64,000 nt of DNA from Pseudobutyrivibrio sp. ACV-2 (lineage in GTDB: Bacteria; Bacillota; Clostridia; Lachnospirales; Lachnospiraceae), in contig NZ_FNQZ01000013.1 of assembly GCF_900107545.1 (NCBI RefSeq), positions 1 through 64,000 on the forward strand, written 5' to 3'. The notes beneath the pieces were generated by a model, which was given only the letters and a program-made list of their open reading frames with translations, was not told the origin of the DNA and searched no databases. The position numbers were made by a program, and so were the translations under genes. This document shows positions 5,148-40,918 of this stretch, piece by piece. Numbering within the stretch: the first letter of the stretch is position 1; the number at the start of each line of letters is the position of its first letter.

Positions 5148-5906
5148 TTAAAGAGTTATGCCCTGCAACTTTGCAAGCTCTGAGAAAACCTCGCCAATCT
5201 TGTCCTGAATTACAAGTACATTCTCACCAACTCTGATGTTCAGTGGATCCCTGTTTATTATCACAAGATTGCGTCCCTTGAAATAATTTACAAATGATGC
5301 CGCTGGATATACCGTCAAAGATGTGCCACCTATTATCATCATATCTGCACTTGAAATGGCATTTATTGCGCCCTGAACCTGGTCTTCAGGAAGTCCCTCT
5401 TCATATAATGTGATATCTGCTCTTACCGTTCCACCACAGTAATCACATTTTGGAATCTCATCCTCTGAATCAAAAATATAATCCACAGGATATGGGGTTC
5501 CACACTTCATGCAGTAATTTCTAAGGGCACTACCGTGGATTTCAAATACCTTTTGACTTCCTGCCTTTTGATGAAGTCCATCGATATTTTGAGTTACTAC
5601 ACCGATGAGCTTTCCCTGTTCCTCAAGCTTTGCCAGATATTTGTGAGCATTGTTAGGCTCGATGTTTCTGGTATCCATCTTTTGCCTGTGAAATTCAAAA
5701 TATACCTTTGGCTCGTGCATCAAACAACTATGACTTAACAGATATTCAGGCTGATACTTGTCAAATCTCACATCGTGCTGATTGTAAAGACCATCCTTGC
5801 TACGAAAATCAGGAATGCCGCTCTCTGTAGATACTCCCGCGCCCCCAAAAAACACGATTTTTGATGACTCATCAATCATTTCGCGTAGCTTTTCAATATT
5901 TTCCAT
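5148..5906 (-). CDS. NAD-dependent protein deacylase, sirtuin family
   Basis: 252 residues of the Sir2 fold. The NAD-binding motif GGAGVSTESGIPDFRS is at the N-terminus, and VTQNIDGLHQKAG plus the catalytic His in EIHGS follow. The zinc ribbon is made by CMKCGTPY...CDYCGG, and GTSLTVYPAA is the second NAD site. It removes acyl groups from lysines using NAD+. The start was moved to the ATG at 5904-5906 because AAGGGGGG lies just upstream of it. It sits between rsmI and the ribosomal operon. Confidence 0.95.
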   Translation of the reverse strand: MENIEKLREMIDESSKIVFFGGAGVSTESGIPDFRSKDGLYNQHDVRFDKYQPEYLLSHSCLMHEPKVYFEFHRQKMDTRNIEPNNAHKYLAKLEEQGKLIGVVTQNIDGLHQKAGSQKVFEIHGSALRNYCMKCGTPYPVDYIFDSEDEIPKCDYCGGTVRADITLYEEGLPEDQVQGAINAISSADMMIIGGTSLTVYPAASFVNYFKGRNLVIINRDPLNIRVGENVLVIQDKIGEVFSELAKLQGITL

Positions 5907-5950
5907 GTAAGTCCCCCCTTCGATCATCCAGTTAATGATTTATATAAATG

Positions 5951-6790
5951 TTAAAGAAGCGCATTGTAAATATCACGCTTGCTAACACCCCTGTCCTTTG
6001 CCACAGCCTTCATGGCTTCCTTTTTATCCATACCTTTTGAAAGATACATATCCATGTGTTCCTGTATGCTCATTTCTTCAAAAACAGCTCTGGCTTCTTC
6101 TATAACCTCAGCTTTTGATTTACCGGCTATTACAAGAACATATTCCCCTCTTGGTTCTTTAGTTTCGTAGGATTTTAGAGCGCCGCCTAAAGTAGTCTTT
6201 TCCTTTTCCTCGTGCTTTTTAGTGAGCTCCCTGCAAAGAGTAATGCCCCTATCCTCACCTAGAACCTCTGCAAGCTCCTTTAATGTGCCAATCAAATGAT
6301 GCGGAGCCTCATAAATGATGATAGTTCTGGTTTCGTTCTTTGTCTCCTCTAGTACTCTACGACGTTCTTTTTTGTCTTTTGGAAGAAAAGCCTCGAAAGC
6401 AAAGCGTCTGCAAGCCTGACCAGACATTGTGACAGCTGTTATACAAGCCGCAGGTCCTGGCACCGAAGTGACCTCAATACCCTCCTCGTAGCACATGGCT
6501 ACCAGCTCTTCACCAGGATCTGAAATGCCTGGTGTGCCGGCATCTGTTACAACAGCTATGTTCTGTCCCTCCTTTAGCTTGGCTATCAAAGTCAATGCCT
6601 TATCCACCTTGTTGAACTCATGATAGCTTGTCATTGGAGTATCTATTTCAAAATGGTTAAGTAGCTTTATGGAATTTCTGGTATCCTCCGCTGCAATCAA
6701 ATCCACTTCCTTAAGAATTCGAACTGCTCGAAAAGTCATATCTTCAAGATTTCCTATTGGAGTTGCTACTAAATATAATGTTCCACTCAT
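5951..6790 (-). CDS. rsmI: 16S rRNA (cytidine(1402)-2'-O)-methyltransferase
   Basis: 279 residues of the tetrapyrrole-methylase fold: LYLVATPIGNLEDMTFRAV at the N-terminus, IAAEDTRNSIKLLNHF, and VVTDAGTPGISDPGEELV, all diagnostic of RsmI/YraL. It methylates the ribose of C1402 in the decoding centre. It is in the same position as Bacillus yabC, at the end of the yaaO-to-yabC-like cluster. Confidence 0.96.
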   Translation of the reverse strand: MSGTLYLVATPIGNLEDMTFRAVRILKEVDLIAAEDTRNSIKLLNHFEIDTPMTSYHEFNKVDKALTLIAKLKEGQNIAVVTDAGTPGISDPGEELVAMCYEEGIEVTSVPGPAACITAVTMSGQACRRFAFEAFLPKDKKERRRVLEETKNETRTIIIYEAPHHLIGTLKELAEVLGEDRGITLCRELTKKHEEKEKTTLGGALKSYETKEPRGEYVLVIAGKSKAEVIEEARAVFEEMSIQEHMDMYLSKGMDKKEAMKAVAKDRGVSKRDIYNALL

Positions 6791-16425: not shown

Positions 16426-17547
16426 TTATGATTTCGATGCCTCTAAAAGCTTTGTCTTTAATTCATGCTCAATCTGTGACAATTCCTGCTCGGCATTACG
16501 ACGTCTTTCCTTTCCTTCTGCCTGAATCCTTAAAACTTCATCCATAGTGCTGATGAGCTGCTGGTTTGTGTGCTTTATGGTTTCTATATCTACAATGCCA
16601 CGTTCTGATTCTTTAACTGTAGCAATTGTGGCGCTTTTTAGAGCTTCAGCATTCTTTTTAAGAAGATCATTTGTCATATCTGACACTTCTCTTTGAGCCT
16701 TTGCTGCCTGGTTTGAGTGTTCCACACCGATTGCAATTACCATCTGATTTTTCCACAATGGAATAGTATTTACTATTGTGGATTGAATTTTTTCTGCCAT
16801 CATTGTATCAGAACTCTGGACCATTCTGATTTGTGGGCCACTTTGAAGTGCAATTGTTCTTGTGAGCTGCAAATCATATATTTTCTTTTCAAAACGGTCG
16901 CACATAGCCGCCAAATCCTTCGCTGCCTGAACATCTTCAGGAAGACCTGTCTCTACCGCTTTGTTTCGAAGCTCCTTGAGCTCTTTATTTCTCGTATCTT
17001 CAAGCTTTTTCTTTCCAGCTGCGATATACATAGAAAGCTCTTTAAAGTAAGCTAGGTTTGCATCATACATTTGATCAAGCATAGCTACATCCTTAAGGAG
17101 TATTGTCTCATGTTTTTCAAGCTCAGTAGTGATAACATTTACATTTGTTTCCACTTTGGCATACTTTGCCTTAAGTGCTGTAAGTCTGCGTGAGCTTTTT
17201 CTGAATAATGCTCTAAGACCTCTTTCTTCCTCTTCTACATCAAATTCTTTCAGTTCACCTATAAGTTTGGTAATCATTTCACCTACCTCACCTATATCCT
17301 TTGTGCGAACTGTATCCAATGCTTTCTCCGAAAAATCAGAAAGCTTTTTCTGTGTTCCAGCGCCATAATTTAATATTGCTGTAGAATTTGAAAGGTCAAT
17401 CTGCCTTGCAAAAGCTTCTACCTGAGCCTGTTCTTCCGCTGTTAGAACTATCTCCTCTTTCATTTCTTTTTCAGCAGGAAAATTGATTTTTTCCGCTGAA
17501 TTCAAATCATCAAAAACCAATGTTGGTGTATCTGTTTTATATTCCAT
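16426..17547 (-). CDS. TelA/toxic anion resistance family protein (PF05816)
   Basis: 373 residues, almost wholly alpha-helical and charged. The pattern matches TelA: ILNYGAGTQKKLSDFSEKAL near residue 60, EEEERGLRALFRKSSRRL, LQLTRTIALQSGPQIRMVQ, and TIPLWKNQMVIAIGVEHS. The family is linked to tellurite and cell-envelope stress tolerance, with unknown biochemical action. It lies between xpaC and dacF; the xpaC-telA pairing is conserved in Firmicutes. Confidence 0.92.
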   Translation of the reverse strand: MEYKTDTPTLVFDDLNSAEKINFPAEKEMKEEIVLTAEEQAQVEAFARQIDLSNSTAILNYGAGTQKKLSDFSEKALDTVRTKDIGEVGEMITKLIGELKEFDVEEEERGLRALFRKSSRRLTALKAKYAKVETNVNVITTELEKHETILLKDVAMLDQMYDANLAYFKELSMYIAAGKKKLEDTRNKELKELRNKAVETGLPEDVQAAKDLAAMCDRFEKKIYDLQLTRTIALQSGPQIRMVQSSDTMMAEKIQSTIVNTIPLWKNQMVIAIGVEHSNQAAKAQREVSDMTNDLLKKNAEALKSATIATVKESERGIVDIETIKHTNQQLISTMDEVLRIQAEGKERRRNAEQELSQIEHELKTKLLEASKS

Positions 17548-17570
17548 TTTTTCCCCCTATTCTATGGATA

Positions 17571-18824
17571 CTAAATTAAAGAATCCTGTTTCATCATTGT
17601 CTTCATAACTGATATATCTGATGAAATATCCCATGCTGACGACTCAAAGAGCTGATTTAAAAACTTTACAAAGGCATCGTTTATCACATCTGTAGCTTCT
17701 TCTATTTCTCTTTGAGATTTTCTAATATTTTCAACATCTATGTTTTGTTTTCTGAGGTCAACATAGCTTTGCAAAAGCTTTTCGGTGGTAGGCAGATAGT
17801 ATGCCATAAATTTTCTTAGATCACCTGCTACTTCAGGCTCGTCTTTAAGCTTTTTAAATATAGAAAGAACTGTGGCCTCAAGGGTGTAAAGCTTGTCAGA
17901 CATTGGTTCTGTATCAGGAATCAAATCATTGTAGTAGCGAATTTTATTGAGATATTCGTTACCCTCTTCTAATATGCCTTTAACATCCTCTGGCAAATTC
18001 TCATCTATTGTATAATACTTGACCTTTTGATTTTCATCCTTTTTATCAGCTTTAGGATTCTCATGTGCTCTCTCTTTATTATATTCTACGCTTCTTGAAT
18101 ATTGCTGATAAACTTCATCCGTAAGCATTAAAGTAGTCTGAGCCTCATCAATAGACGCATATGGAAGATATCCACGCCTTCTCATTTTCCTGATTTGACG
18201 GATGATTTTATCTCTTGCAATTCCAGTTTTATCTTCAAGCTCTCTTAATTCGACGTAGGACCTGTTACCCACAATCTTTCCAAAATTGAAGTAGTTTTTC
18301 AACAATGTCCTGTTATTTTTCCCCGCTATCAAAAGTCCTATTCCTGCAGCAAGTGAAAGTGCCTCGACAGTGACAAAACTGATAAGCATTGTAGGATGCT
18401 CAGCACTCATAATTGGAAGGATCGCAAGACTGCTAAGAACACCCAAAACTCCATACATTGTAATAAATGAACCTGCAACCAGTTTACCAATTCCCTTTGA
18501 TCTATTGACCTTTACAGCAAAATATGGTGTCCTGGTATCCTTTTTCTTTGGGAGGAAATTTCTGATGGTTGATTCAATAGAATCCCTTAATTCTTCCCCT
18601 AAATCATATCCCAGATTTCCTGGTTCTACGGTTCTTTCCACTTCTCTATATTCAGCTTTTTTATATTTAGGGCCGCTATAGCCGGATTTTTTAAATCCAT
18701 TTGTGGCATCATTAACAAAGGATTTCACATCTTTACTAAGATTAGAGAAATCCCCCGATTCTGCTGCTCTATTAATGCTATTTAAAATCGCTTCCCCATA
18801 TTTATAAAAATCTTTGTTGTTCAT
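17571..18824 (-). CDS. XpaC-like protein (5-bromo-4-chloroindolyl phosphate hydrolysis family)
   Basis: 417 residues. Two adjacent hydrophobic helices in the first half (LVAGSFITMYGVLGVLSSLAIL and MLISFVTVEALSLAAGIGLLIAG) are followed by a helical cytoplasmic domain with DKIIRQIRKMRRRGYLPYAS and a long C-terminal helical bundle. This is the PF10112 architecture, the usual partner of TelA. Phosphatase activity suggested by the name is not established. First gene of the operon. Confidence 0.85.
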   Translation of the reverse strand: MNNKDFYKYGEAILNSINRAAESGDFSNLSKDVKSFVNDATNGFKKSGYSGPKYKKAEYREVERTVEPGNLGYDLGEELRDSIESTIRNFLPKKKDTRTPYFAVKVNRSKGIGKLVAGSFITMYGVLGVLSSLAILPIMSAEHPTMLISFVTVEALSLAAGIGLLIAGKNNRTLLKNYFNFGKIVGNRSYVELRELEDKTGIARDKIIRQIRKMRRRGYLPYASIDEAQTTLMLTDEVYQQYSRSVEYNKERAHENPKADKKDENQKVKYYTIDENLPEDVKGILEEGNEYLNKIRYYNDLIPDTEPMSDKLYTLEATVLSIFKKLKDEPEVAGDLRKFMAYYLPTTEKLLQSYVDLRKQNIDVENIRKSQREIEEATDVINDAFVKFLNQLFESSAWDISSDISVMKTMMKQDSLI

Positions 18825-19938: not shown

Positions 19939-21723
19939 TCATATACTTGCAAACAATTTTTCTATTTCCTCAGCACTCATTACCCTGTTAGGATCTGTTA
20001 AATCTACTCCTACATCTGGAATAATTATCTCGTCATTTTCTGGCTCAGGCTCTGGTTCAGGTTCCGGCTCTGGTTCAGGTTCTGGCTCTGGTTCGCCAAT
20101 TTCATCTAACAAGGCATCGAGTTCTGCACCAGGATCTATAGGTGGTGTATTTTCCAATACTATTTCTTCTACTGGTTCATCACCTGTAAGAATGATCTCC
20201 TCTTCTGGTGGTGTTGCTTCCAGTACTATCTCTTCAGGTTGTGAAGGAGCTGCTTCAGGTGTTACATCCATCTGTGGTACATCTGGTATCTCTATAGTTT
20301 CTTCTATTGGTGTCTCTACTGTTACTGGAGTTTCAGGAATTGAAGTTTCCAGTTCCACAGGAACTTCTTCAACTACTGCCTCTTGCTCTAATGGAATTTC
20401 TGCCATGACAGGCATCTCTTCTGCTGGTGGTACTTCTTCAACTATAGGTATCTCCTCAAGTTGAGGTTCTTCCACTGTAGGTTCCTCTGTGACAGCCATA
20501 TCAAGGTCAATACCAATATCTTCGGTTATTTCCTCTTGAGGTGCCGCTTCTAGGTCTATTCCTATATCTTCAGTCACTTCTTCTTGAGGTACCGCTTCTA
20601 GATCAATACCTATATCCTCAGTTACTTCTTCAGGTTGCGGCTCTAAGTCTATGCCTATATCTTCAGTAACCTCTTCTACTGGAGTCTCTAAGTCTATGCC
20701 TATATCCTCGGTTACCTCTTCAGGTTGTGCCTCTAAGTCAATTCCTATATCTTCAGTTATCTCTTCCTGTGGAGTTTCTAAATCAATTCCAATATCTTCT
20801 ACCGGTGCTTCTAAGTCTAATCCTACATCCTCTGTGATTGGTTCTGTGGTATTTTCTAATTCAATACCAACATCCATCATATTATCAACAGCAGGTTCTT
20901 CTATAGGATTATCAATAGCTGGCTCTACTGGAATTTCTTCCATAACAGGAACTTCTTCTGGCATTGGCTCAGGTATTGGTTCTGGTATGATTTCAGGTGC
21001 AGGTTCTGGTACAGGAGCCGGTGCAGGAGCTACAGCAACCTCAGGTTCTGGCATAACCGGTGGAGCCTGATAAACAGGTGGTGGCGCCATCTGTATTGGC
21101 TGTGCCACTACTTGGATGCCATTTTGGATTTTTCCTTCTAAGCTAGAAACCTTTGCTGATAAATCAATTATCTTTTGCTGAATATCTAAATTACTTTCCT
21201 TTAAGAGTGCCTGTTGTTTTTCTATTATTTGACTATTAAATGTATCTAACTTTTCCTTAATCGAAAACATCTGATTAATCAGTTCATCATTTGAATTCAT
21301 TAATGCATCAGCGTTTTCTTTACTTCTTGAAATTGTCACCTTAGCCACTGCCTTTTGGGCACTTATAATATCCTCCGCAGGGAGAAAATTACTTTGCTCC
21401 ATATGCCTTAATCTAAGGTCCAATTCTTCAAAACTCTTTTTTATAACTAGATACGAAGCTTTCTGAGCATTGTAAATATCTTGATACTTCTGCTCTTCCA
21501 TATCTTTAGTTTTTAATGATATATCAAGAATCGCACTAATCAGGAAAAAAAGCGCAACAATTATCAACAGTAAACCTGCTGCCATAAAAATAAAATTATC
21601 TTTGATATTAATCATGATGTATAGTTCCATCAAGATTAATACAGCGACTCCCATACCTGAAAGTATAAGCTGAATTTTATCCTTTTGTATTTCCTTCTGT
21701 AGCTTCTTGGTATTTTCGTCCAT
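19939..21723 (-). CDS. Membrane-anchored acidic repeat protein with FliM/FliY-like C-terminal peptides
   Basis: 594 residues; I know of no named family. Two membrane helices (about residues 17-40 and 44-68) are followed by a helical, probably coiled-coil stretch (about 75-205), a Pro-rich linker (205-260), and tandem copies of a 14-16-residue unit containing EDIGIDLE (about 285-408). After a second acidic Pro/Glu region come (EP)n at about 544-562 and a short end. Residues 534-539 read ELDALL, and the end reads VMSAEEIEKLFASI. Both resemble the CheY-P-binding peptide LSQxEIDALL of FliM and FliY. It lies 8 bp after a CheC/FliY-type phosphatase gene, with ribosome-binding site AGGGGA. Inferred role: a membrane scaffold in a two-component or chemotaxis-like pathway. 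Confidence 0.6.
   Translation of the reverse strand: MDENTKKLQKEIQKDKIQLILSGMGVAVLILMELYIMINIKDNFIFMAAGLLLIIVALFFLISAILDISLKTKDMEEQKYQDIYNAQKASYLVIKKSFEELDLRLRHMEQSNFLPAEDIISAQKAVAKVTISRSKENADALMNSNDELINQMFSIKEKLDTFNSQIIEKQQALLKESNLDIQQKIIDLSAKVSSLEGKIQNGIQVVAQPIQMAPPPVYQAPPVMPEPEVAVAPAPAPVPEPAPEIIPEPIPEPMPEEVPVMEEIPVEPAIDNPIEEPAVDNMMDVGIELENTTEPITEDVGLDLEAPVEDIGIDLETPQEEITEDIGIDLEAQPEEVTEDIGIDLETPVEEVTEDIGIDLEPQPEEVTEDIGIDLEAVPQEEVTEDIGIDLEAAPQEEITEDIGIDLDMAVTEEPTVEEPQLEEIPIVEEVPPAEEMPVMAEIPLEQEAVVEEVPVELETSIPETPVTVETPIEETIEIPDVPQMDVTPEAAPSQPEEIVLEATPPEEEIILTGDEPVEEIVLENTPPIDPGAELDALLDEIGEPEPEPEPEPEPEPEPEPENDEIIIPDVGVDLTDPNRVMSAEEIEKLFASI
20038..20094. repeat. Hexanucleotide tandem repeat coding for (EP)n
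   Basis: Variants of GGTTCA/GGCTCT/GGTTCC hexamers repeat about nine times and encode Glu-Pro dipeptides on the minus strand. Slippage in whole hexamer units would change linker length without a frameshift. Confidence 0.8.
20500..20871. repeat. Tandem 45-48 bp coding repeats (EDIGIDLE units)
   Basis: Eight or more imperfect copies of a 45-48 bp unit, built around 'tctattcctatatcttc' and close variants, encode EE[VI]TEDIGIDLE[AT]xP. Third-position differences between copies show the array is not a recent expansion, yet the protein motif is held nearly constant, which suggests selection on it. Confidence 0.85.
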
Positions 21724-21731
21724 TTTTTCCC

Positions 21732-22343
21732 CTAACCTTCATCCTTTTTGTCAAATAGATGTACCATATCAAGCGCAAACGTTATAGGATACAGTTGTAC
21801 CATAACCGAATCAATCAAATTTCCAATTTTTAAATCGAATGTTATTTTTACAAAATCAATTTCTGGAGATTCAAATAATTTCTCAAAAATTTTAACACTT
21901 TCAACATCAATGTTATCTGTCTTTGGTGGAGAAATATCTACTATACGATTGAGTAACTGAGACATTGAAGATGCTGCACTACCCATCATCTGATTCATTG
22001 CCTCTGATACAGCACTTAGCTGTATTTCCCCAATTTCACCTGCTGTATTACTTCCATCGCCTCCCATCATCAGGTCAGCAATTACTTTTACATCATTTTC
22101 TTTAAGGATTAATACATTACTTCCTGATAACCCCTTCACATAGTTGATGTGCACAAGTACACACACATTATGATAATCGTCTAAGGCTTCGCTTTTTCTT
22201 ATTAAATCAATCTTTGGCGTTGTGATATCTACCTTGAGATTATTTAACAATGCACTAAGTGAAGTTGCTGACGATCCCATACTGATATTGGCAATTTCAC
22301 CTAATGTATCTTGCTGCTCTTTAGACAATGTCATTTCTGCCAT
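21732..22343 (-). CDS. CheC/FliY-type phosphatase, stand-alone
   Basis: 203 residues that match the middle (CheC-like) part of FliY. Both phosphatase motifs are visible. The first reads DTLGEIAN...ISMGSSATSLSALL...VDITTP, and the second SAVSEAMN...GSAASSMSQLL...VDISPP, each fitting [DS]xxxExxN...P. The first has one extra residue between Asn and Pro compared with FliY. The protein lacks both the N-terminal EIDALL peptide and the C-terminal FliN/SpoA domain of FliY. It should dephosphorylate CheY-like response regulators. ATG at 22341-22343 behind AGGAGGA. No flagellar or che genes are in the window. Operon with the acidic repeat protein. Confidence 0.85.
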   Translation of the reverse strand: MAEMTLSKEQQDTLGEIANISMGSSATSLSALLNNLKVDITTPKIDLIRKSEALDDYHNVCVLVHINYVKGLSGSNVLILKENDVKVIADLMMGGDGSNTAGEIGEIQLSAVSEAMNQMMGSAASSMSQLLNRIVDISPPKTDNIDVESVKIFEKLFESPEIDFVKITFDLKIGNLIDSVMVQLYPITFALDMVHLFDKKDEG

Positions 22344-22526
22344 ATACACCCGTCCTCCTATTTGTGTATTTTACCCCTATAAAATTACTATTAGCAAAAT
22401 ATTCTAAATTTATTATACATTACTTATAATTATTAGACTATATTCTGTATAGAAGTATTTTACTCTAATATTGCGAATTTTGTGTGTGCAATTATATTAT
22501 ATTACTCAAAATATTTACTTTTGGTT

Positions 22527-31718: not shown

Positions 31719-32348
31719 TTATTTCTTAAGAGTAATTACAACGTAACGATATGGCTCTTCACCCTCTGAATGAGTAGCAACATGATTATCATTCTGAAGT
31801 GCAGAATGAATAATACGTCTCTCATAAGGATTCATAGCTTCAAGAGTAACAGCCTTCTTTGTTCTCTTAACCTTGTTCGCCATATTCTTTGCAAGATTTT
31901 CTAATGTCTCTTTTCTACGACGTCTGTAATCTTCAGTATCAATCTTAACTCTTGTATAATTTTCAGATGAACGATTAACTGCTAAATTAGTAAGATACTG
32001 TAATGAGTCAAGTGTCTGACCACGCTTACCAATTAAAACTCCCATCTCTGGGCCAGCTAAATCAATTGAAAGTGTATTATCACTTTCATCAAGTGACATA
32101 GTAAGATTTACTTCAAGCTGCATTGCTTCAAAAACACCATCAAGGAATTCTTTAGCAACCTGTTTTGGATCTTCAGCGACAGAAATAGCTACTCTGATGA
32201 TAGCATCCTTTGAACCAATTCCAAGGAAACCAGAGCTTCCTTCTGCAACTACTTCATACTTAATCTCACTAGATGTAACACCTAAAGCTACTGTAGCATT
32301 TGTAATAGCATCATCTACAGATTTTCCAGTAAACTCTCTGTATTCCAT
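31719..32348 (-). CDS. khpB: RNA-binding protein Jag/KhpB
   Basis: 209 residues: an N-terminal Jag-N domain (MEYREFTGKSVDDAITNATVALG), a KH domain with VLIGKRGQTLDSLQYLTNLAVNR, and an R3H domain with ANKVKRTKKAVTLEAMNPYERRIIHSAL split over its two helices. It binds RNA with KhpA and influences cell division and elongation in Gram-positives. 12 bp after yidC. Confidence 0.95.
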   Translation of the reverse strand: MEYREFTGKSVDDAITNATVALGVTSSEIKYEVVAEGSSGFLGIGSKDAIIRVAISVAEDPKQVAKEFLDGVFEAMQLEVNLTMSLDESDNTLSIDLAGPEMGVLIGKRGQTLDSLQYLTNLAVNRSSENYTRVKIDTEDYRRRRKETLENLAKNMANKVKRTKKAVTLEAMNPYERRIIHSALQNDNHVATHSEGEEPYRYVVITLKK

Positions 32349-32360
32349 TATTATTCCCCC

Positions 32361-33635
32361 TTATTTATTATTCATTTCATTAAATTCTTTTACAAGATTT
32401 GCTTTTGCAGCAAGCGAGTTAGAATTAGCCTTTGCTCTAAATTCATCAGCCTTCTTAAGAGCTTCAGACTCTGAATTAACTAAGTTTGCCTTATCAGCCA
32501 TAGAAGAATTCTTAGTACTCATACGAGCTGCTTCGTAAATCTGAGCCTGGCGAATACCACGCTTTTCTGCCTTAGCAGCAGCTTTTTCTTTATTTTTCTC
32601 AATAATGCTTTCAAGATCAATCTTTTCAAAATGCTTATTTAAGAAATACTGCTGAATAATACGAACAACAGCACCAGCAATCCAGTAAAGACCAAGACCA
32701 ACAGGAACTGAAAAAGCAATGAATAATGACATAAGTGGCATCATAAGATTCATTGTCTTCATCTGCTGAGCCATCTGCTCTGACTGACCTTCAGTTGAGG
32801 TTGGTGTAAGCTTGATATTTGCAAGCTGTGATAAATAAGAAAATACAGGAATAAGAAGCGCACAAACGATAAGTGCAAAATTCTTATTGCTAGCAGACCA
32901 TCCATCTTTAATAAGGTTAAGTGGAGTGTCTGAAATGTTTAACATAAATAAATAGTTAATCCTTTCAAGCTTTGCAACAACAGTATCAACTGATGATGCT
33001 AAATCTGGAAAAGAAGCTGTTACTGCTTCCCAGCCTGATGTTGGGAGCTTGTATAAAACATCAATAATTGAATCTGAAATTACTGATGTATCTGAACCTG
33101 AAAATGTAGGATTAAGATTTTTAACACCAGAATTTTCAAAAACACCCTGCATTTTATTTGCAAATCCATCTGTAGCCATAATACCACTTACAAGATCTGT
33201 AAAGATATTTTTTACAGAAGAAATATAAGCTGGAACATTATAGAATACACGATAAAGTGCAAAAAGAATTGGCATTTGGATTAACATAAATCCACAGCTA
33301 CCAACCTGAGAAATTCCATATTTGTCATAAAGACTCTGGATTTCATTTTGCTGAGCCTGCATAGAAGCCTGGTCTTTTTTACCTTTATATTTGTCCTGAA
33401 TAGCCTTCATTTCAGGCTGCATCTTACGCTGAAGTACAGCAAACTTCTGCTGCTGATAGGTAAGAGGGAACATACAAATGTAAATAAAGAAAGTAAAAAC
33501 AATAATAGTAAGAGCTATACTTTGAAATCCAAGAGCAGAAAGCAAAATATAAATCTTGTCCATAAACCATCCAAGAACCTTAGCGATAGGTCCAAGAATG
33601 GAACCGTTGTAAGCGGTTAATAAAAGTTCGCTCAA
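32361..33635 (-). CDS. yidC: Membrane protein insertase YidC/OxaA/SpoIIIJ
   Basis: 424 residues, with five membrane helices of the YidC core: ALTIIVFTFFIYICMFPL near the start, ILFALYRVFYNVPAYISSV, and LMMPLMSLFIAFSVPVGLGLYWIAGAVVRI. It lacks a cleavable lipoprotein signal. An insertion of about 100 residues lies in the periplasmic region after YISSVKNIF, and the tail is long and charged (EKNKEKAAAKAEKRG). The start is a TTG at 33633-33635 behind GGAGG. Confidence 0.94.
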   Translation of the reverse strand: MSELLLTAYNGSILGPIAKVLGWFMDKIYILLSALGFQSIALTIIVFTFFIYICMFPLTYQQQKFAVLQRKMQPEMKAIQDKYKGKKDQASMQAQQNEIQSLYDKYGISQVGSCGFMLIQMPILFALYRVFYNVPAYISSVKNIFTDLVSGIMATDGFANKMQGVFENSGVKNLNPTFSGSDTSVISDSIIDVLYKLPTSGWEAVTASFPDLASSVDTVVAKLERINYLFMLNISDTPLNLIKDGWSASNKNFALIVCALLIPVFSYLSQLANIKLTPTSTEGQSEQMAQQMKTMNLMMPLMSLFIAFSVPVGLGLYWIAGAVVRIIQQYFLNKHFEKIDLESIIEKNKEKAAAKAEKRGIRQAQIYEAARMSTKNSSMADKANLVNSESEALKKADEFRAKANSNSLAAKANLVKEFNEMNNK

Positions 33636-33652
33636 TGTAAAACCTCCAGTTT

Positions 33653-33865
33653 TTAAGGAACTGGATCAAATCCACCATGAGATAAAGGATTACAGCGGAT
33701 AATACGCCATAATGCCAAACCACCACCCTTTATTGCACCATATTTTTCAACCGCCTGCAAACCATAATTCGAACATGTAGGACAATAAGGGCATTTATAA
33801 GATTTCATTGGAGATAAATATTTTTGGTATAGCTTAATTAAAAATATAAAAACTCTCTTTAACAT
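33653..33865 (-). CDS. yidD: Membrane protein insertion efficiency factor YidD
   Basis: 70 residues, full family length: [34 protein letters not shown], with conserved cysteines, then [21 protein letters not shown]. It assists YidC-dependent insertion. It sits between rnpA and yidC in the usual order. Confidence 0.96.
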
Positions 33866-33898
33866 GATTATTCAACACAATGGAAATGTCCATTCCAA

Positions 33899-34237
33899 TT
33901 ATTTACGAGTTACTTTATGAAGATTTGCAAGATGAAGCAAAGAATTTTGTATTTCTTCGAAATTAGCAGAAGCAGAAGCTTCTCTTGCAACGACTACAAT
34001 GTCCAAACCACTATTGAACATCTCTTCATTAAGTCTATAACTTTCTCTTATCAGTCTCGTCAAATGATGTCTAACTACTGAATTTCCAACCTTTTTACTA
34101 ACAGAAATTCCAATTCGATTTCGATCCGTTTTATTATGGTATATATACATCACAAGCTGCCTGTTAGCTTTTGACACACCTCTTCTGTATACAGTTGTGA
34201 AGTCCTTATTCTTTTTTAGAGATTCACTAAATTCCAT
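33899..34237 (-). CDS. rnpA: Ribonuclease P protein component
   Basis: 112 residues. The RNR-type motif NRIGISVSKKVGNSVVRHHLTRLIRESYR is split by the usual basic helix. It binds the RNase P RNA to process tRNA 5' ends. A short hairpin (CCACA/TGTGG, 34270-34284) lies between rpmH and rnpA and may tune relative expression. Confidence 0.97.
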   Translation of the reverse strand: MEFSESLKKNKDFTTVYRRGVSKANRQLVMYIYHNKTDRNRIGISVSKKVGNSVVRHHLTRLIRESYRLNEEMFNSGLDIVVVAREASASANFEEIQNSLLHLANLHKVTRK

Positions 34238-34285
34238 AACAAATATTTTCCTTTAAATAGAAAGAAAGACCACATGGTCTGTGGC

Positions 34286-34420
34286 CTAAGCTGATAATTT
34301 CTTTCTTCCTTTTGCACGTCTAGCAGCAAGAACCTTACGTCCACCTGCTGTGCTCATTCTAGATCTAAATCCATGAACTTTGGATCTCTGTCTCTTTTTT
34401 GGTTGATATGTCATCTTCAT
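34286..34420 (-). CDS. rpmH: 50S ribosomal protein L34
   Basis: 44 residues, translated directly from the minus strand: [18 protein letters not shown], then [20 protein letters not shown] and RKKLSA. This is canonical L34. The ribosome-binding site is AGAGGAGGTGG. It is the first gene of the left origin arm. Confidence 0.98.
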
Positions 34421-34423
34421 AAT

Positions 34424-34893
34424 ATATCCACCTCCTCTTTATGAGAAAACATCAGTTGAAATTATAATGGCAAAAGCCCATAAAGTCAATAAATTTTGCA
34501 ATATTTAAATTATGAAAAATCTGTGGATAAGTAAAAAACACAATATCTTAATAAATCGAATATATCTATACACTAAATATAGTGGAATTTTAAATAAAAA
34601 ATTTTTAGAGTTATCTACAATCTGTGGAAAACTCTGTGGATAAGTGTATAATTTTTAACACTTATCCACATTTATAATCAAAAATGCTTTAAAATAAGCT
34701 ATAATAATGTGGAAAAATGATAATACACATATGTGGACAATAAAACGCACTATATATACGGCCTCAAATTTCGAAAATAAGGCCTTTTAAACCTCAAACG
34801 ACCCCCCACACCATTTATTAGTGAATATTGCTAAAATCGCTTATTTGGTTTATTATAGAAAAGAATATAAAATGTGGATAAAAAGGATCATTT
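34424..34893. other. oriC: Chromosomal replication origin region (oriC, rpmH-dnaA gap)
   Basis: A 470-bp AT-rich gene-free stretch with clustered DnaA boxes. Exact TTATCCACA or its complement lies at 34522-34530, 34635-34643, 34662-34670 and 34873-34881. One-mismatch boxes lie at 34611-34619, 34623-34631, 34709-34717 and 34732-34740. An A/T-only tract (about 34580-34608) could be the unwinding element. A GGCCT...AGGCC hairpin lies near 34760-34785. Coding strand switches across this region. Confidence 0.93.
34828..34856 (+). promoter_or_regulatory. dnaA promoter
   Basis: TTGCTA (34828-34833), a 17-bp spacer and TATTAT (34851-34856). The exact DnaA box at 34873-34881 lies just downstream, between the probable transcription start and the dnaA ATG, so autorepression by DnaA is likely. 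Confidence 0.7.
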
Positions 34894-36282
34894 ATGGAAG
34901 AGATTGTTAAAAAATGGGAAGAGATACTTTCCTATTTAAAAAATGAATACGCTATCACAGACGTATCATACGATTCATGGATAAAACCTCTTGAATTATT
35001 TCAAATAGAAGATAATAAATTATATCTTACATATGGCGGTGAGCAAAGTACTATGACACTTGGATATGTCACAAGAAAATACGCCACCCCGCTAAAAGTA
35101 ACAATAGCAGAAATTACTGGAATTCAATTCGATGAAATTTTAGTTATATCCCAAGAAAACGCAAAGCAAATTAATAGAGAAAAAAATGTTGTATCTATTA
35201 ATATGGAAGAAACATCATCTTTTGAAGCAAACAAAAAGATGGGAAATTCTTCTATAAATCCTAAGTTTACTTTTGATAATTTTGTCGTTGGCCGAAATAA
35301 CAGATTTGCTCAGACTGCAGCTCTTGCAGTTGCGGAGTCTCCTGGCGAATTCTATAACCCACTTTATATTTATGGTGGGCCGGGACTTGGTAAGACTCAC
35401 CTAATGCAGGCTATTGGAAACTACATTGGAAAACAAAATCCAAATACTCATATATTATATGTAACTTCCGAGGAATTCACTAACGAAGTTATTGAAAACA
35501 TGAGAACCAATAACAATGCTTCAGCAATGCAGCGCTTCAGAGATAAATATCGTACCGTAGACGTTCTTATGGTAGACGATATTCAGTTCATCATTGGTAA
35601 GGAAGCAACACAGGAAGAATTTTTCCACACTTTCAATGCTCTCCACGCTATGGGAAAGCAGATTGTAATTTCATCAGATAAACCACCTAAGGACATGGAA
35701 ACTCTTGATGATCGTTTTAAATCAAGATTCGATATGGGACTTATGGCAGATATTGGCTATCCAGACTATGAAACACGTATGGCCATCCTTAGTAAAAAAA
35801 TAGAAGAAAAAGATTTTAATCTTGATGAATCAATCAGAAAATACATTGCTGAAAACATTCAATCAAACATTAGAGAAATCGAAGGAGCTTTGAATAAGCT
35901 CATAGCTTTTTCGCGACTTGAAAAAATAGATATCACAATGGAAATAGCTGAACGAGAGCTCCAGAATTTTATTTCTCCAAATATTTCAAGAGAAATAACT
36001 CCTCAGCTTATTATAGAAGTAGTCTCTGAACACTTTAATCTTACTGTTGATCAGATGGCTTCAAAAAACAGATCAAGTAATGTTGCAAGACCACGACAAA
36101 TTGCCATGTATCTTTGCAACACTATGACTGATTCATCGCTTCAAGCTATAGGTCTTCTTCTTGGAGGACGAGATCATTCTACTATTATTCACGGTGCAAA
36201 CAAAATCGGGGAAGAAATAGAAAAGGATGAAAGTACTAGAAACCTTGTTGAAACTATAAAAAAGAAAATCAATCCTAATTAA
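34894..36282 (+). CDS. dnaA: Chromosomal replication initiator protein DnaA
   Basis: 462 residues in four domains: N-terminal KIVKKWEEIL-like domain I (YDSWIKPLEL), a short linker, AAA+ domain III with GGPGLGKTHLMQAIGNY and VLMVDDIQFIIGK, and the domain IV helix-turn-helix ending in GGRDHSTIIHGANKI, the DnaA signature that reads the box. It opens the origin. ATG start 13 bp after a DnaA box and GGATC-type ribosome-binding site. Confidence 0.99.
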   Translation: MEEIVKKWEEILSYLKNEYAITDVSYDSWIKPLELFQIEDNKLYLTYGGEQSTMTLGYVTRKYATPLKVTIAEITGIQFDEILVISQENAKQINREKNVVSINMEETSSFEANKKMGNSSINPKFTFDNFVVGRNNRFAQTAALAVAESPGEFYNPLYIYGGPGLGKTHLMQAIGNYIGKQNPNTHILYVTSEEFTNEVIENMRTNNNASAMQRFRDKYRTVDVLMVDDIQFIIGKEATQEEFFHTFNALHAMGKQIVISSDKPPKDMETLDDRFKSRFDMGLMADIGYPDYETRMAILSKKIEEKDFNLDESIRKYIAENIQSNIREIEGALNKLIAFSRLEKIDITMEIAERELQNFISPNISREITPQLIIEVVSEHFNLTVDQMASKNRSSNVARPRQIAMYLCNTMTDSSLQAIGLLLGGRDHSTIIHGANKIGEEIEKDESTRNLVETIKKKINPN

Positions 36283-36566
36283 TGTTTATAACTTGTTTAT
36301 AACATTATGGATAATTTGTGAACAGCCTGTTAGTCCTATTTGATAACCAATAGATGGTTGTAAATATCAAAATATTCAGACACTTTTTGTTCACATATTA
36401 TCCATAGATTATCAATACAAAATTCACACTTTTTTTAGATTTAACATTTTATGTTTTACGCATAAATACTTGGGGTTTCACAGTTATATACAAATCCACA
36501 ACCTATAAGAAGAGTACTTAGAAATATATATTTATTTTATTTTTTTTAGAAAGGGAGCACTCACTC
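36283..36566. promoter_or_regulatory. dnaA-dnaN intergenic region with DnaA-box-like sites
   Basis: 284 bp without a gene. TTATCCATA-type boxes lie at 36307-36315 (complement) and 36398-36406, with AAATCCACA at 36492-36500. As in Bacillus, the second half of a bipartite origin may sit here. The region is AT-rich and ends with the AAAGGGAG ribosome-binding site of dnaN. No clear dnaN promoter was found. Confidence 0.6.
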
Positions 36567-37682
36567 ATGAAAATCACTTGTCACGCAGCCGACCTTGTTA
36601 AAGGTGTTAATATTGTCTCAAAAGCAGTTCCGACCCGAACAACTATGGCAATACTTGAATGTATTCTTATAGATGCATCCTCAGGCGAGATAAAACTTAC
36701 AGCCAATGATATGGAAATTGGTATAGAGACTATTGTTCAGGGTTCTATATTAGAAAGAGGCATCATCGCGCTTGATGCAAAGAAATTCTCTGAGATTGTT
36801 AGAAAGCTTCCTAAAAACGAAGTTACTATAGAGACAGATTCAACTTTCAAAACATCTATTACATGTGAAAAGGCAAAATTTGATATTATAGGAAAATCTG
36901 GCGAAGATTTTTCTTATATTCCAAATCCAAATAGAAATCAACCTGTTATTATTTCTCAGTACACACTTAGAGATATCATTAGCAGAACTATTTTTTCTGT
37001 TGCTGATAATGAAAACAACAAAATGATGATGGGTGAGCTCCTTGAAATCAAAGACAATAAGCTTAAAGTTGTTGCTCTTGATGGTCATAGAGTGTCAATC
37101 AGATATGTTGAACTGAAAAATCCAGCTGAAGATGTTAAGGTTGTAGTTCCAAAGAAGACCCTCAATGAAATCATCAAGATTATTGATGGTGGAGTTGACG
37201 ATGTAGTTAATATTTTCGTTACAGAAAATCATATTATTTTTGAATTTGATCAGACTACTGTCGTATCTCGAATTATTGAAGGTGAATACTTTAAGATTGA
37301 GCAGATGCTTTCTGCAGATTATGAAACAAAGGTTAAAATCAATAAAAGAGAATTTTTCGAGTGTATTGATAGAGCAACAATCCTTGTAAATGAAGGTGAT
37401 AAAAAGCCAATTATCGTGAGCACTTCAGACAGCACTATGTCTATTTCAATATCATCATTCATTGGTTCCATGAATGAAAGTATTGATATTGTCAAAGAAG
37501 GCAAGGATATTATGATTGGCTTCAATCCAAAATTTGTTATGGATGCACTTAGAGCAATCGATGATGAAGAAATCAGTCTTTATATGCTTAATGCAAAGAG
37601 CCCTTGCTTCATTAAGGCTGACGATGGTTCATACATTTACATTGTTCTTCCTGTAAACTTTAACAATCCTGGAGCCAACTAG
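36567..37682 (+). CDS. dnaN: DNA polymerase III beta sliding clamp
   Basis: 371 residues forming three repeated clamp domains (MKITCHAADLVKGVNIVSKA..., the central VADNENNKMMMGELLEI, and the C-terminal FNPKFVMDALRAIDDEEISL). The end LPVNFNNPGAN is a variant of the usual LPxRL tail. It tethers polymerase to DNA. It is followed 9 bp later by the S4 protein. Confidence 0.98.
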   Translation: MKITCHAADLVKGVNIVSKAVPTRTTMAILECILIDASSGEIKLTANDMEIGIETIVQGSILERGIIALDAKKFSEIVRKLPKNEVTIETDSTFKTSITCEKAKFDIIGKSGEDFSYIPNPNRNQPVIISQYTLRDIISRTIFSVADNENNKMMMGELLEIKDNKLKVVALDGHRVSIRYVELKNPAEDVKVVVPKKTLNEIIKIIDGGVDDVVNIFVTENHIIFEFDQTTVVSRIIEGEYFKIEQMLSADYETKVKINKREFFECIDRATILVNEGDKKPIIVSTSDSTMSISISSFIGSMNESIDIVKEGKDIMIGFNPKFVMDALRAIDDEEISLYMLNAKSPCFIKADDGSYIYIVLPVNFNNPGAN

Positions 37683-37691
37683 GAGTAAGAA

Positions 37692-37907
37692 ATGGAAAAA
37701 ATACAGATTAGAGATGAATTTATAAAATTAGGCCAGCTTTTAAAGCTTGCCAATTTAGTAGAGTCTGGCGCAATGGCAAAAGATGTCATAGAAGAAGGCC
37801 TGGTAAAATATAATGGCGAGGTTGAAACACGCCGTGGCAAAAAAGTTTATCCTGGAGATATTGTTGAATTTAATGGAGAAAGTGTAACAGTTACCAATGA
37901 TAATTAA
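37692..37907 (+). CDS. S4-domain RNA-binding protein (YaaA/RlbA family)
   Basis: 71 residues that are one S4 domain: FIKLGQLLKLANLVESGAMA, then EEGLVKYNGEVETRRGKKVY and PGDIVEFNG. Small S4 proteins between dnaN and recF are conserved in Firmicutes and probably act in ribosome assembly. Overlaps recF by 11 bp. Confidence 0.93.
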   Translation: MEKIQIRDEFIKLGQLLKLANLVESGAMAKDVIEEGLVKYNGEVETRRGKKVYPGDIVEFNGESVTVTNDN

Positions 37908-39006
37908 ATCCATTGAATTAGAGAATTTTAGAAATTATGATTCACTTAGTATTAATTTTGATGAACATACTACTATTCTCTTTGGAAATAATGCTCAAGG
38001 AAAGACAAATATTTTAGAGTCTGCCTATATGAGTGGTACTACTAAATCCCATAAGGGCAGCCGTGATAAAGAAATAATCAAATTTGATAAAAATGAGAGT
38101 CATATAAAGACAATCATTTCAAAAAATGACCGTGATTATCAGATTGATATTCACCTTAGAAAAAATAAATCAAAAGGAATCGCAATAAACAGGGTGCCAA
38201 TCAAAAAAGCATCGGATTTATTTGGTCTTATAAATATAATATTCTTCTCTCCTGAGGATCTAAATATTATAAAAAATGGTCCTGCTGAGAGAAGAAAATT
38301 TATGGATGCTGAGCTTTGTCAAATAGACAAAATTTATCTTTCTGACCTTACAAATTACAATAAAGCTTTAAATCAGCGTAATGCTCTGCTAAAAGAGATG
38401 GTTTACAAGCCAGATTTAAAAGAGACACTATCCCTTTGGGATGAGCAGCTTATATCTTACGGTAAAAAGATAATAACAAGACGCCAGCAATTTATTAACG
38501 ATATCAACATTATCGTCAAAGAAATCCACAATAAAATCACTTCTGGCAAGGAAAATATAGATGTCACTTATGATCCAAATATTGATGACATATTTTTTCT
38601 TGATGAATTAGTCAAAAATAAAGAAAAAGATATGAGATTCTGTCAGACCTCAGTAGGTCCGCACAGGGATGATATAAAAATAACTGTCGATGGAATCGAT
38701 ATCAGAAAATACGGAAGTCAGGGACAACAGCGAACTTGTGCTCTCTCACTTAAGCTTTCTGAGATAAAGCTTGTTGAAGATACAATTAACGACAAGCCTA
38801 TTCTTCTTCTTGATGACGTTTTATCTGAGCTGGATAAAAATCGTCAAAGTGATCTTTTAGATAATCTTCTTGATACACAAACAATCATTACCTGTACAGG
38901 TATAGATGAATTTGTTAAAAATAGATTCAAGTTAAACACCGTTTATAAAGTTACAAATGGTTCTATAGAATTAATTACGGAGGAACTAGATGGCAAGCGA
39001 AATTAA
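37897..39006 (+). CDS. recF: DNA replication and repair protein RecF
   Basis: 369 residues. The N-terminal ATP site is [35 protein letters not shown] is the ABC-type signature, and [15 protein letters not shown] is Walker B. It loads RecA at single-stranded gaps. Overlaps both neighbours (11 bp with the S4 gene, 17 bp with gyrB), so expression is coupled. Confidence 0.97.
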
Positions 39007-40918
39007 TCAGGAATATGGTGCAGACCAAATACAGATTTTGGAAGGACTTGAAGCAGTTCGTAAACGTCCAGGTATGTATATTGGCTCAACTTCAGAGAGA
39101 GGTCTTCATCATTTGGTGTACGAAATCGTAGATAATGCAGTTGATGAGGCATTGGCAGGTTTTTGTACACATATAAAAGTGACTATTAATCCAGATAATT
39201 CCGTGACTGTTGTAGATGATGGTCGTGGAATTCCTACAGGAATCAACAGCAAGGCTGGAATTCCAGCTGTAGAAGTAGTATTTACAGTACTTCATGCAGG
39301 TGGTAAATTCGGCGGTGGCGGCTACAAGGTTTCAGGTGGTCTTCACGGTGTAGGTGCGTCTGTTGTTAATGCCCTTTCAAACTGGGTTGAAGTTGAAATT
39401 AAACGTGATGGAAAAATCTTCAAACAGCGTTATGAGCGTGGAAAGACCATGTATCCTCTTAAGGAAATCGGTACATGCCCTATGGAAGAGACAGGTACAA
39501 AGGTCACTTTCCTTCCAGACGACACTATTTTTGAAACAACTGTCTTTGATTATAAAACTTTAAAGGTTCGTCTTCGTGAAACAGCATTCCTTACAAAGGG
39601 ACTTCGCATCACTCTTTCAGATACCAGAAGTGAAGAGATCAAAGAAGAAAGCTTCCACTACGAAGGTGGTATCAAGGAATTTGTTCAATACATCAATCGT
39701 GGTAACAAGCCACTTTACGAAGATGTTATCTATTGCGAAGGTACAAAGGATAATATTTACGTTGAAGTTGCTATGCAGCATAACGATGGTTATCAGGATC
39801 AGGCTTACAGCTATGTAAATAATATCGTTACTCCTGAAGGTGGTACACATCTTACAGGTTTCAGGGGTGCCCTTACAAAAGTATTTAATAAATATGCCAG
39901 AGACAACAAGATTTTAAAGGACAGTGACCCACAGTTAGAGGGTGACGATATTCGTGAGGGACTTGCTGCAATCATCTCTATCAAAATCGAGGAGCCACAG
40001 TTTGAAGGACAGACAAAGCAAAAACTTGGCAACTCAGAGGCTAGAGGAGCGGTAGATTCTATTGTTACAGAACAGTTAACATGGTTCTTAGAGCAAAATC
40101 CTGCCACAGCAAGACTTATTTGTGAAAAATCTCTTCAGGCTCAAAGAGCCAGAGAGGCTGCAAGAAAAGCCAGAGATTTGAGCAGAAGAAAAACTCCACT
40201 TGAAGGTATGTCTCTTCCTGGAAAACTTGCCGATTGTTCAGACAAGGATCCAAAGAATTGTGAAATCTTTATCGTAGAGGGTGATTCCGCTGGTGGTTCT
40301 GCAAAGACAGCCAGAAGTCGTGCTACCCAGGCTATTCTTCCACTTCGTGGAAAAATCCTAAACGTAGAAAAAGCTCGCGAAGACAGAATCTATGGAAATG
40401 CAGAAATTCAGGCGATGATTACTGCATTTGGTACAGGTATTCATGAGAACTTTGATATATCAAAGCTTCGTTACCACAAGATTATTATCATGACTGATGC
40501 CGATGTTGATGGAGCTCACATTGCAACACTTATGCTTACATTCCTTTACAGATTTATGCCTGAGCTTATCAAGCAGGGATATGTTTACCTTGCTACTCCA
40601 CCACTCTACAAGCTGGAGAAAAATAAAAAAATCTGGTATGCATATTCAGACGAAGAATTAAACAAGATTCTTACTGAAGTTGGCCGTGACTCAAGTAATA
40701 AGATTCAGCGTTACAAAGGACTTGGTGAGATGGATGCCGAGCAGCTTTGGGAGACAACAATGGATCCTGAAAAGAGAATCTTAAAGCGTGTTGTTATTGA
40801 TGATGAAGATGTGTCTGAAATTAACGTTACTTTCTCAACTCTCATGGGTGATAACGTAGAGCCAAGACGAGAATTCATCGAAGCTAACGCTAAATACGTA
40901 CAGAATCTTGATATATAA
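38990..40918 (+). CDS. gyrB: DNA gyrase subunit B
   Basis: 642 residues. The GHKL ATPase has [16 protein letters not shown] and [12 protein letters not shown], and [15 protein letters not shown] follows. The TOPRIM domain has [15 protein letters not shown] and [14 protein letters not shown], and the end is [13 protein letters not shown]. The ATPase half of gyrase. ATG is preceded by GGAGGAAC inside recF. Confidence 0.99.

Follow-up and report, generated by a model that had tools for sequence, protein, structure and literature searches.

In a 64,000-nucleotide stretch of Pseudobutyrivibrio sp. ACV-2 DNA (hereafter the window), a gene for a stand-alone FliY/CheC-type phosphatase (P0001) lies 8 bp upstream of a gene for a membrane protein (P0002) whose C-terminal tail resembles the EIDALL peptide of FliM and FliY. 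Both genes are on the minus strand of contig C36 (C, L and G numbers are our handles for contigs, loci and genomes) of a 3.66 Mb genome. The EIDALL peptide of FliM and FliY binds the phosphorylated form of CheY, CheY-P (PMC9126983, excerpt), and binding of the FliM peptide to CheY-P is described elsewhere (PMC6946799, excerpt). We propose, with a probability of about one half, that P0002 and its relatives are arms anchored in the membrane that dock CheY-P or some other receiver protein, paired in Pseudobutyrivibrio with a phosphatase derived from FliY.

P0002 comprises 594 residues (19939–21723, minus strand, as for all features of the pair), delimited from the open reading frame (ORF) and its homologues, and matched no family in a Pfam scan at E ≤ 0.01. 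Two transmembrane segments are predicted within residues 20–62 (21538–21666; 20–38 and 44–62 by hydropathy, in a region aligned among homologues). They are followed by a conserved cytoplasmic segment, by eye probably a coiled coil (residues 76–200, 21124–21498), by an acidic, variable and probably disordered linker (residues 201–530, 20134–21123) and by a conserved tail (residues 566–594, 19942–20028). The tail contains a 21-residue motif, DLTDPNRVMSAEEIEKLFASI, identified by conservation and by a profile match, and within it the EIDALL-like core MSAEEIEKLF (residues 582–591, 19951–19980). From residue 213 to the end, 32% of positions are aspartate or glutamate and just two are lysine or arginine. 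Among three Pseudobutyrivibrio proteins, 26 of 29 tail positions are identical, compared with 49/75 in the membrane part, 88/125 in the coil and 54/330 in the linker, where a further 170 positions are gapped. When the last 27 codons of P0002 were compared with those of two congeners, synonymous to non-synonymous ratios of 10:1 and 7:1 were obtained.

An initial annotation, made from the sequence alone, had described P0002 as a two-helix membrane protein 8 bp from the phosphatase with about nine acidic repeats, ELDALL at residues 534–539 and a terminal MSAEEIEKLF, and all of these elements were confirmed. It had proposed to check whether the two peptides are the most conserved parts of the C-terminus; this holds for the terminal one and fails for ELDALL (20107–20124), which has 8 of 15 identical positions around it and is not family-wide; xLDALL occurs in all four Pseudobutyrivibrio C-termini seen, that of the window included. 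The nine EDIGIDLE-like repeats (residues 284–408, 20500–20874, degenerate ones included), which the annotation had made part of its proposed scaffold, are not conserved and were not seen in the other-genus homologues inspected. We therefore ruled them out as a functional unit and regard them as a local feature.

The tail is probably an EIDALL-type receiver-docking peptide, a prediction supported by a weight matrix trained on 44 N-terminal peptides of FliM/FliY, which were chosen by pattern near the start of ORFs of more than 240 residues, without a domain search. This matrix scored the P0002 tail at 14.4, whereas the best of 200 shuffled versions of P0002 reached 12.6. A C-terminal window scoring at least 12 was found in only 2 of 1632 other ORFs, a background whose top five members are FliM/FliY proteins that escaped the filter and are still counted. 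Across 17 motif-bearing scaffold sequences (L195, an N-terminal fragment, and L200 and L201, which have no motif, were left out), the best window coincided with a motif copy in all 17 and exceeded the maximum of 200 shuffles in 12. A 21-column profile built from scaffold motif copies only, A5, matched the P0002 tail with E = 1.1e-10, the P0002 row being included in the profile. Within its own genome the tail gave one strict pattern match and one profile match only, and the idea that it is common to many proteins of this genome was rejected.

The strongest support for the EIDALL identity came unsought, from FliY itself. Profile A5, derived from scaffold tails alone, also matches the FliY proteins of G107 and G195, in both of which the N-terminal peptide is missing and the motif sits in the linker between the CheC and FliN domains. 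The linker copies read NKMMSQEEIEALLAG, and G195 has three, as NKMMSQEEIEALL(A/G)G. Of 15 FliY rows that lack the N-terminal peptide, 8 have such a linker motif, as against 0 of 73 rows that possess the peptide; the 15 comprise the two A5 matches and 13 chosen among low-identity FliY, the 73 linkers were checked by regular expression only, and the FliY tables contain some identical rows (the FliY of L305 was not parsed). FliY proteins in which the docking peptide appears to have moved from the N-terminus to the CheC–FliN linker, with one to three copies there, were recorded at L260, L261, L288, L290, L292, L294, L297 and L298.

P0001 (21732–22343) has 203 residues counted from the ATG at 22343, which matches the starts of its congeners (MAEVTLTKEQ, MADLTLTKQE); the ORF itself spans 21732–22349, allowing 203–205 residues. 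As the initial annotation had stated, it stands alone and carries both CheC active-site ExxN motifs, EIAN (residues 18–21, 22287–22298) and EAMN (residues 116–119, 21993–22004), residues here being counted from 22349. It scores 102 bits against Pfam CheC and 246.5 bits against the NCBIfam FliY phosphatase model (cut-off 218), compared with 66 for the Thermotogales CheC model and 35 for the CheX model. Because the FliY match spans model positions 31–222 only, the N-terminal peptide and the FliN part of FliY are missing. P0001 begins at the CheC domain with no N-terminal EIDALL peptide and has no match to PF01052 (FliN/SpoA), the two PF01052 matches of the genome both lying on contig C38 and none on C36. 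Among solved structures the nearest is 4hyn_A (E = 9.8e-39, residues 6–203), whose deposition names it a CheC / FliN fusion protein. From the ExxN motifs and this homologue, P0001 is predicted to be a CheY-P-type phosphatase.

Elsewhere, and absent from the initial annotation, the genome encodes a complete FliY (LSQDEINALL) adjoining cheY and a CheC adjoining cheD, together with CheA, CheW, CheB, FlhF and FlhG (named by eye unless marked by a CheC, FliM/FliN, receiver or CheW domain search). Since a complete FliY and a CheC are also present, P0001 is the third CheC-family protein of this genome. In a phosphatase tree of 123 rows (115 different; identical rows include L020 and L145, and L003 gave no match), a branch with support of 99/90 separates 51 stand-alone rows and 2 long-branch FliY from 69 FliY and 1 stand-alone row. 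A few long-branch rows keep the stand-alone copies from forming one perfect clade, so that 2 changes are needed; the placement of the long-branch stand-alone rows of G004, G006, G060 and G196 is unsure. The tree makes P0001 a FliY paralogue, in line with the kinship to FliY that the initial annotation had suggested. The complete FliY on C38 and this separation in the tree argue against the notion that P0001 is the genome's own FliY broken in two, which we rejected. Further Lachnospiraceae with stand-alone copies are mostly rumen-derived and include Butyrivibrio and Oribacterium.

Homologues of P0002, which we call type A, were sought in 200 genomes of the family; counts assume that the same genomes entered each search, as judged by identical handles, sizes and genus labels. 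An N-terminal profile found them in 20 genomes (19 FliM/FliN-positive), and a broader profile in 34 (32 FliM/FliN-positive), the weakest of which need not be homologues. Their common core consists of N-terminal hydrophobic segments and a conserved QKASYL...QKAxAKVTIxRSKENxDALMNSND, while the acidic linker varies by genus. Most of them, in many Lachnospiraceae genera, end in DPN[KHR]x[ML][ST]x[DE][DE]IxxLFAxM with variants (e.g. DPNKxMSPDEIAALFAxM). They carry one to five motif copies, the last nearly always 0–4 residues from the stop; the short profile matches L219–L221 and L229 have no motif. At L195, in G168, the type A gene is split into two ORFs, and the assembly has CheW-domain matches without FliM/FliN.

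The motif is closely associated with flagella. At E < 1e-8 it was found in 38 of the 200 genomes, 37 of them among the 108 that are FliM/FliN-positive (Fisher p = 1.4e-10, not phylogeny-corrected). This distribution does not support a non-flagellar pathway: given that 37 of 38 genomes are FliM/FliN-positive, the phrase “outside the flagellar motor” of the initial annotation can mean outside the C-ring only, not outside flagellated cells. In the single exception, G168, the type A gene is broken, the stand-alone phosphatase is intact and CheW domains are matched; since one of these CheW matches lies at the edge of contig C12, in a short ORF, the lack of FliM/FliN may be an assembly gap. Among 12 genomes checked for CheW, all 8 with the motif contain it. 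In a class-level sample of 391 genomes, 4 matches were obtained at E ≤ 1e-4, all among the 16 same-family genomes listed, and none in the other 375, which were taken as outside the family from the kinship order of the table. A spread of the motif beyond the family was accordingly rejected.

A second membrane-protein family, type B, carries the same motif in 8 genomes, in 1 to 13 copies. Its members have an N-terminal acidic arm that bears the copies, one hydrophobic segment and a probably extracytoplasmic domain, the topology being a prediction, and three members scanned gave no Pfam match above cut-off. Profile comparison of the membrane parts detected no similarity between type A and type B, which led us to reject a relationship between them. 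The family occurs in 84 of the 200 genomes, 81 of them FliM/FliN-positive. In all eight motif-bearing type B loci with upstream DNA examined (7 of the 8 motif type B genomes, plus G193, a weaker profile match), cheV lies upstream, separated from type B by no gene at L267 and L277, by one at L264, L265, L266, L269 and L271, and by at least two at L262. CheV was identified by its CheW and receiver domains in 4 of 4 proteins scanned and recognised by eye in the remainder. In 9 of 9 genomes covered by both the CheW and the type B searches, a CheW ORF of CheV size is on the same contig as type B, the two matches being about 2–6.5 kb apart. The gene between cheV and type B at L265 (1332–2144), L266 (1558–2544) and L271 (1183–1989) encodes 268–328 residues with no Pfam match.

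Most complete type B loci (15/16) also begin with YL[DE]xLL, which is EIDALL-like by eye only. The matrix gave it at most 10.7, with 5 of 12 scores below 7; as these values lie within background, we did not count it as evidence. The genome of the window has its own type B protein (L306:6325–8265, after cheV at 5342–6265), with 646 residues, the N-terminus MSRSEDYLDGLLNSI, one transmembrane segment and no motif copies. At E < 1e-8 the motif is carried by type A in 30 genomes and by type B in 8, never by both (G011 and G188 were assigned to type A by eye, and in G153 the type A gene is split over two contigs). Among type B genomes, type B bears the motif in 0 of 27 with a type A motif and in 8 of 57 without (p = 0.05), which is suggestive only. 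A third kind of carrier was noted in G052, where a 234-residue ORF on the minus strand (L268, G052:C66, 2181–2882 in reverse-complement numbering) has no Pfam match and ends in GGDDPNRVLSPDEIQALFAAMGAG.

The spacing between phosphatase and arm genes is 8–12 bp in all five Pseudobutyrivibrio genomes seen, the window included. The initial annotation had presented the two genes as one candidate module and proposed to check whether they always occur together. In the flanks examined, adjacency was found only in Pseudobutyrivibrio (the window; L069/L082, apparently one contig; L083; L084; L085), and a linked, always co-occurring module was ruled out. Nor do the genes always share a genome: counting the main phosphatase clade, the motif is present in 8 of 9 genomes with that phosphatase (in G079 the carrier is type B), whereas the phosphatase is absent from 30 of 38 genomes with the motif.

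Taken together, these features suggest how such a system could work. An anchor of two helices, followed by a probable coiled coil and a long, acidic, flexible linker, would present a C-terminal EIDALL-type peptide. At the membrane, away from the motor, the arm would capture CheY-P or a different phosphorylated receiver, for instance that of CheV; binding would presumably depend on phosphorylation. In Pseudobutyrivibrio, the neighbouring gene would supply a FliY-derived phosphatase that lacks both the peptide and the C-ring domain and might act on what the arm holds. Arm and phosphatase would thus form a split, motor-independent device for CheY-P capture and removal, a sink or a buffer, with a possible effect on swimming. 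Docking of a receiver, most likely CheY-P, is favoured because the phosphatase stands beside type A in Pseudobutyrivibrio and cheV stands near type B. CheV, for which a role as phosphate sink has been put forward (PMC4742279, excerpt), is another possible docking partner. A wider version is quite conceivable, though we advance it more tentatively: multivalent docking arrays for CheY-P at the membrane, formed by two dissimilar families with 1–13 peptides per protein and coupled to a phosphatase in Pseudobutyrivibrio, would constitute a motor-independent layer of control. Here type A would contribute two transmembrane segments and C-terminal arms, and the cheV-linked type B N-terminal arms plus its own N-terminal YLDxLL; through avidity, the array would set the level or location of free CheY-P.

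Several observations weigh against docking arms for CheY-P. Likeness by chance had been conceded at the outset; the window's tail rises above its shuffles, but L186, L187, L188, L194 and L197, 5 of the 17 scaffold rows, do not exceed their own shuffle maximum. At the position of the FliM/FliY glutamine the motif mostly has proline or alanine, and its DPN has no FliM/FliY counterpart. Moreover, 7 of the 15 FliY without an N-terminal peptide also lack the linker motif, G080 has the phosphatase clade without a motif match, and, of the 33 named stand-alone loci, the 29 outside Pseudobutyrivibrio showed no arm gene in the flanks examined (L094, L103, L112 and L114 offered less than 510 bp of downstream DNA). 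The correlation with flagella carries no phylogeny correction, and its E < 1e-8 cut was picked after the table had been seen. At the search's own E ≤ 0.01, 41 of 46 genomes are FliM/FliN-positive; the four additional negatives, G152 (the one inspected), G161, G175 and G189, match weakly and in part only. Finally, in Geobacillus/Bacillus FliY binds FlhG through its N-terminal 36 residues, which are both necessary and sufficient (PMC12327844, excerpt).

That last point underlies the main rival, which we consider unlikely: the arms would capture FlhG, a MinD/ParA-like ATPase, instead of CheY-P, and, in the manner of an acidic polar hub, serve as landmarks or titration sites that govern how many flagella form and where they are placed. 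A contact of FlhG with FliY/FliM is described (PMC12826062, excerpt), and the genome of the window encodes an FlhG with DQAQNLR, recognised by eye. The gene neighbourhood also fits: at 6 of 16 loci (L184–L199, surrounding genes named by eye) a parA-parB-DUF4446-DUF3881 row is immediately continued by type A on the strand of DUF3881, and at a seventh, L190, one gene intervenes between DUF3881 and type A. This arrangement may, however, be mere ancestral gene order, and a CheY-P-type phosphatase as partner in Pseudobutyrivibrio, together with cheV near type B, points to receiver signalling instead. Improbable too, in our estimation, is an arrangement in which the motif docks a phosphorylated receiver merely as a buffer or to enrich it locally near receptors or motors, the phosphatase being idle and its adjacency incidental. 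The restriction of linkage to Pseudobutyrivibrio, the 30 motif genomes without the stand-alone clade and the capacity suggested by up to 13 copies are consistent with such a buffer. The preserved 8–12 bp spacing is not what incidental adjacency would suggest, and the motif occurs in 8 of 9 phosphatase-clade genomes, compared with 30 of the 100 remaining flagellated genomes (p = 9e-4, uncorrected for phylogeny, with G168 treated as flagellated).

It is very improbable that the tail is just a generic capped helix, a segment for self-association or an EF-hand-like or Prok_Ub-like one, unrelated to CheY docking. S-P-E/D-E is a frequent helix N-cap, and Pfam returned Prok_Ub (2.4e-4 and 0.0037) and EF-hand_15 (0.011), all weak and below cut-off. 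Such a helix would account poorly for the copies of NKMMSQEEIEALLAG in the linker of a FliY without N-terminal peptide, for the motif on two dissimilar membrane families in flagellated genomes, or for the matrix result.

In the window, a membrane transporter gene and a tRNA-Arg separate the pair from DUF3881, DUF4446, parB and parA upstream (ParA and ParB named by eye). Its other flank begins with a tRNA-Lys and a plus-strand, trmB-like methyltransferase gene, after which come minus-strand genes for a Halogen_Hydrol-like protein, TelA and a D-Ala-D-Ala carboxypeptidase. Searches of the genome for CheC, FliM/FliN, receiver and CheW domains hit only P0001 on contig C36, in agreement with the earlier remark that no flagellar or chemotaxis gene is near. 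Within this region, at 16426–18824, the TelA gene stands next to the gene weakly similar to Halogen_Hydrol (XpaC-like). The sign of the GC (guanine–cytosine) skew switches at about 32000–40000 of the window, with parAB close by, as expected near a replication origin.

We found no earlier description of such arm proteins in a literature search that left subscription journals mostly outside; the excerpts it returned place the EIDALL peptide in the C-ring, on FliM, FliY and, sporadically, FliN. The family thus apparently holds a set of membrane proteins with probable CheY-docking peptides that this literature does not describe. EIDALL as a mobile element, within FliY and on two membrane families, would point to an unstudied layer of chemotaxis in a major rumen and gut family and suggests a previously unrecognised additional layer of control in bacterial steering. 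It yields the prediction that the tails bind CheY-P, or else FlhG, and offers a likely role for a large unannotated set of membrane proteins (type B, found in 84 of the 200 genomes).

Several known systems are comparable with the Pseudobutyrivibrio pair. Like FliY, the pair combines a phosphatase domain with both ExxN motifs and a docking peptide of the same kind, the modules being encoded together; unlike FliY, it is divided over two genes, with the peptide C-terminal on a membrane arm, and since no FliN domain is present, it is by sequence not a part of the C-ring. CheZ is a phosphatase with a C-terminal CheY-binding peptide. The pair resembles it in a C-terminal EIDALL-like peptide that is predicted here to tether CheY for dephosphorylation, although CheZ is a single soluble protein with an unrelated phosphatase fold. 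P0001 shares with CheC a stand-alone CheC-family domain with two ExxN motifs, but by model score it is far closer to FliY than to the Thermotogales CheC or to CheX, and the genome has a separate CheC beside cheD. The polar hubs HubP and FimV have acidic repeats and, like P0002, are membrane-anchored, and the parAB setting recalls them; the likeness is one of description, not of sequence comparison, and the conserved element here is instead the EIDALL-like peptide. If the docking array is real, its use of avidity would be a mode of control unlike that of CheZ, of CheC/CheX or of receiver-domain phosphate sinks.

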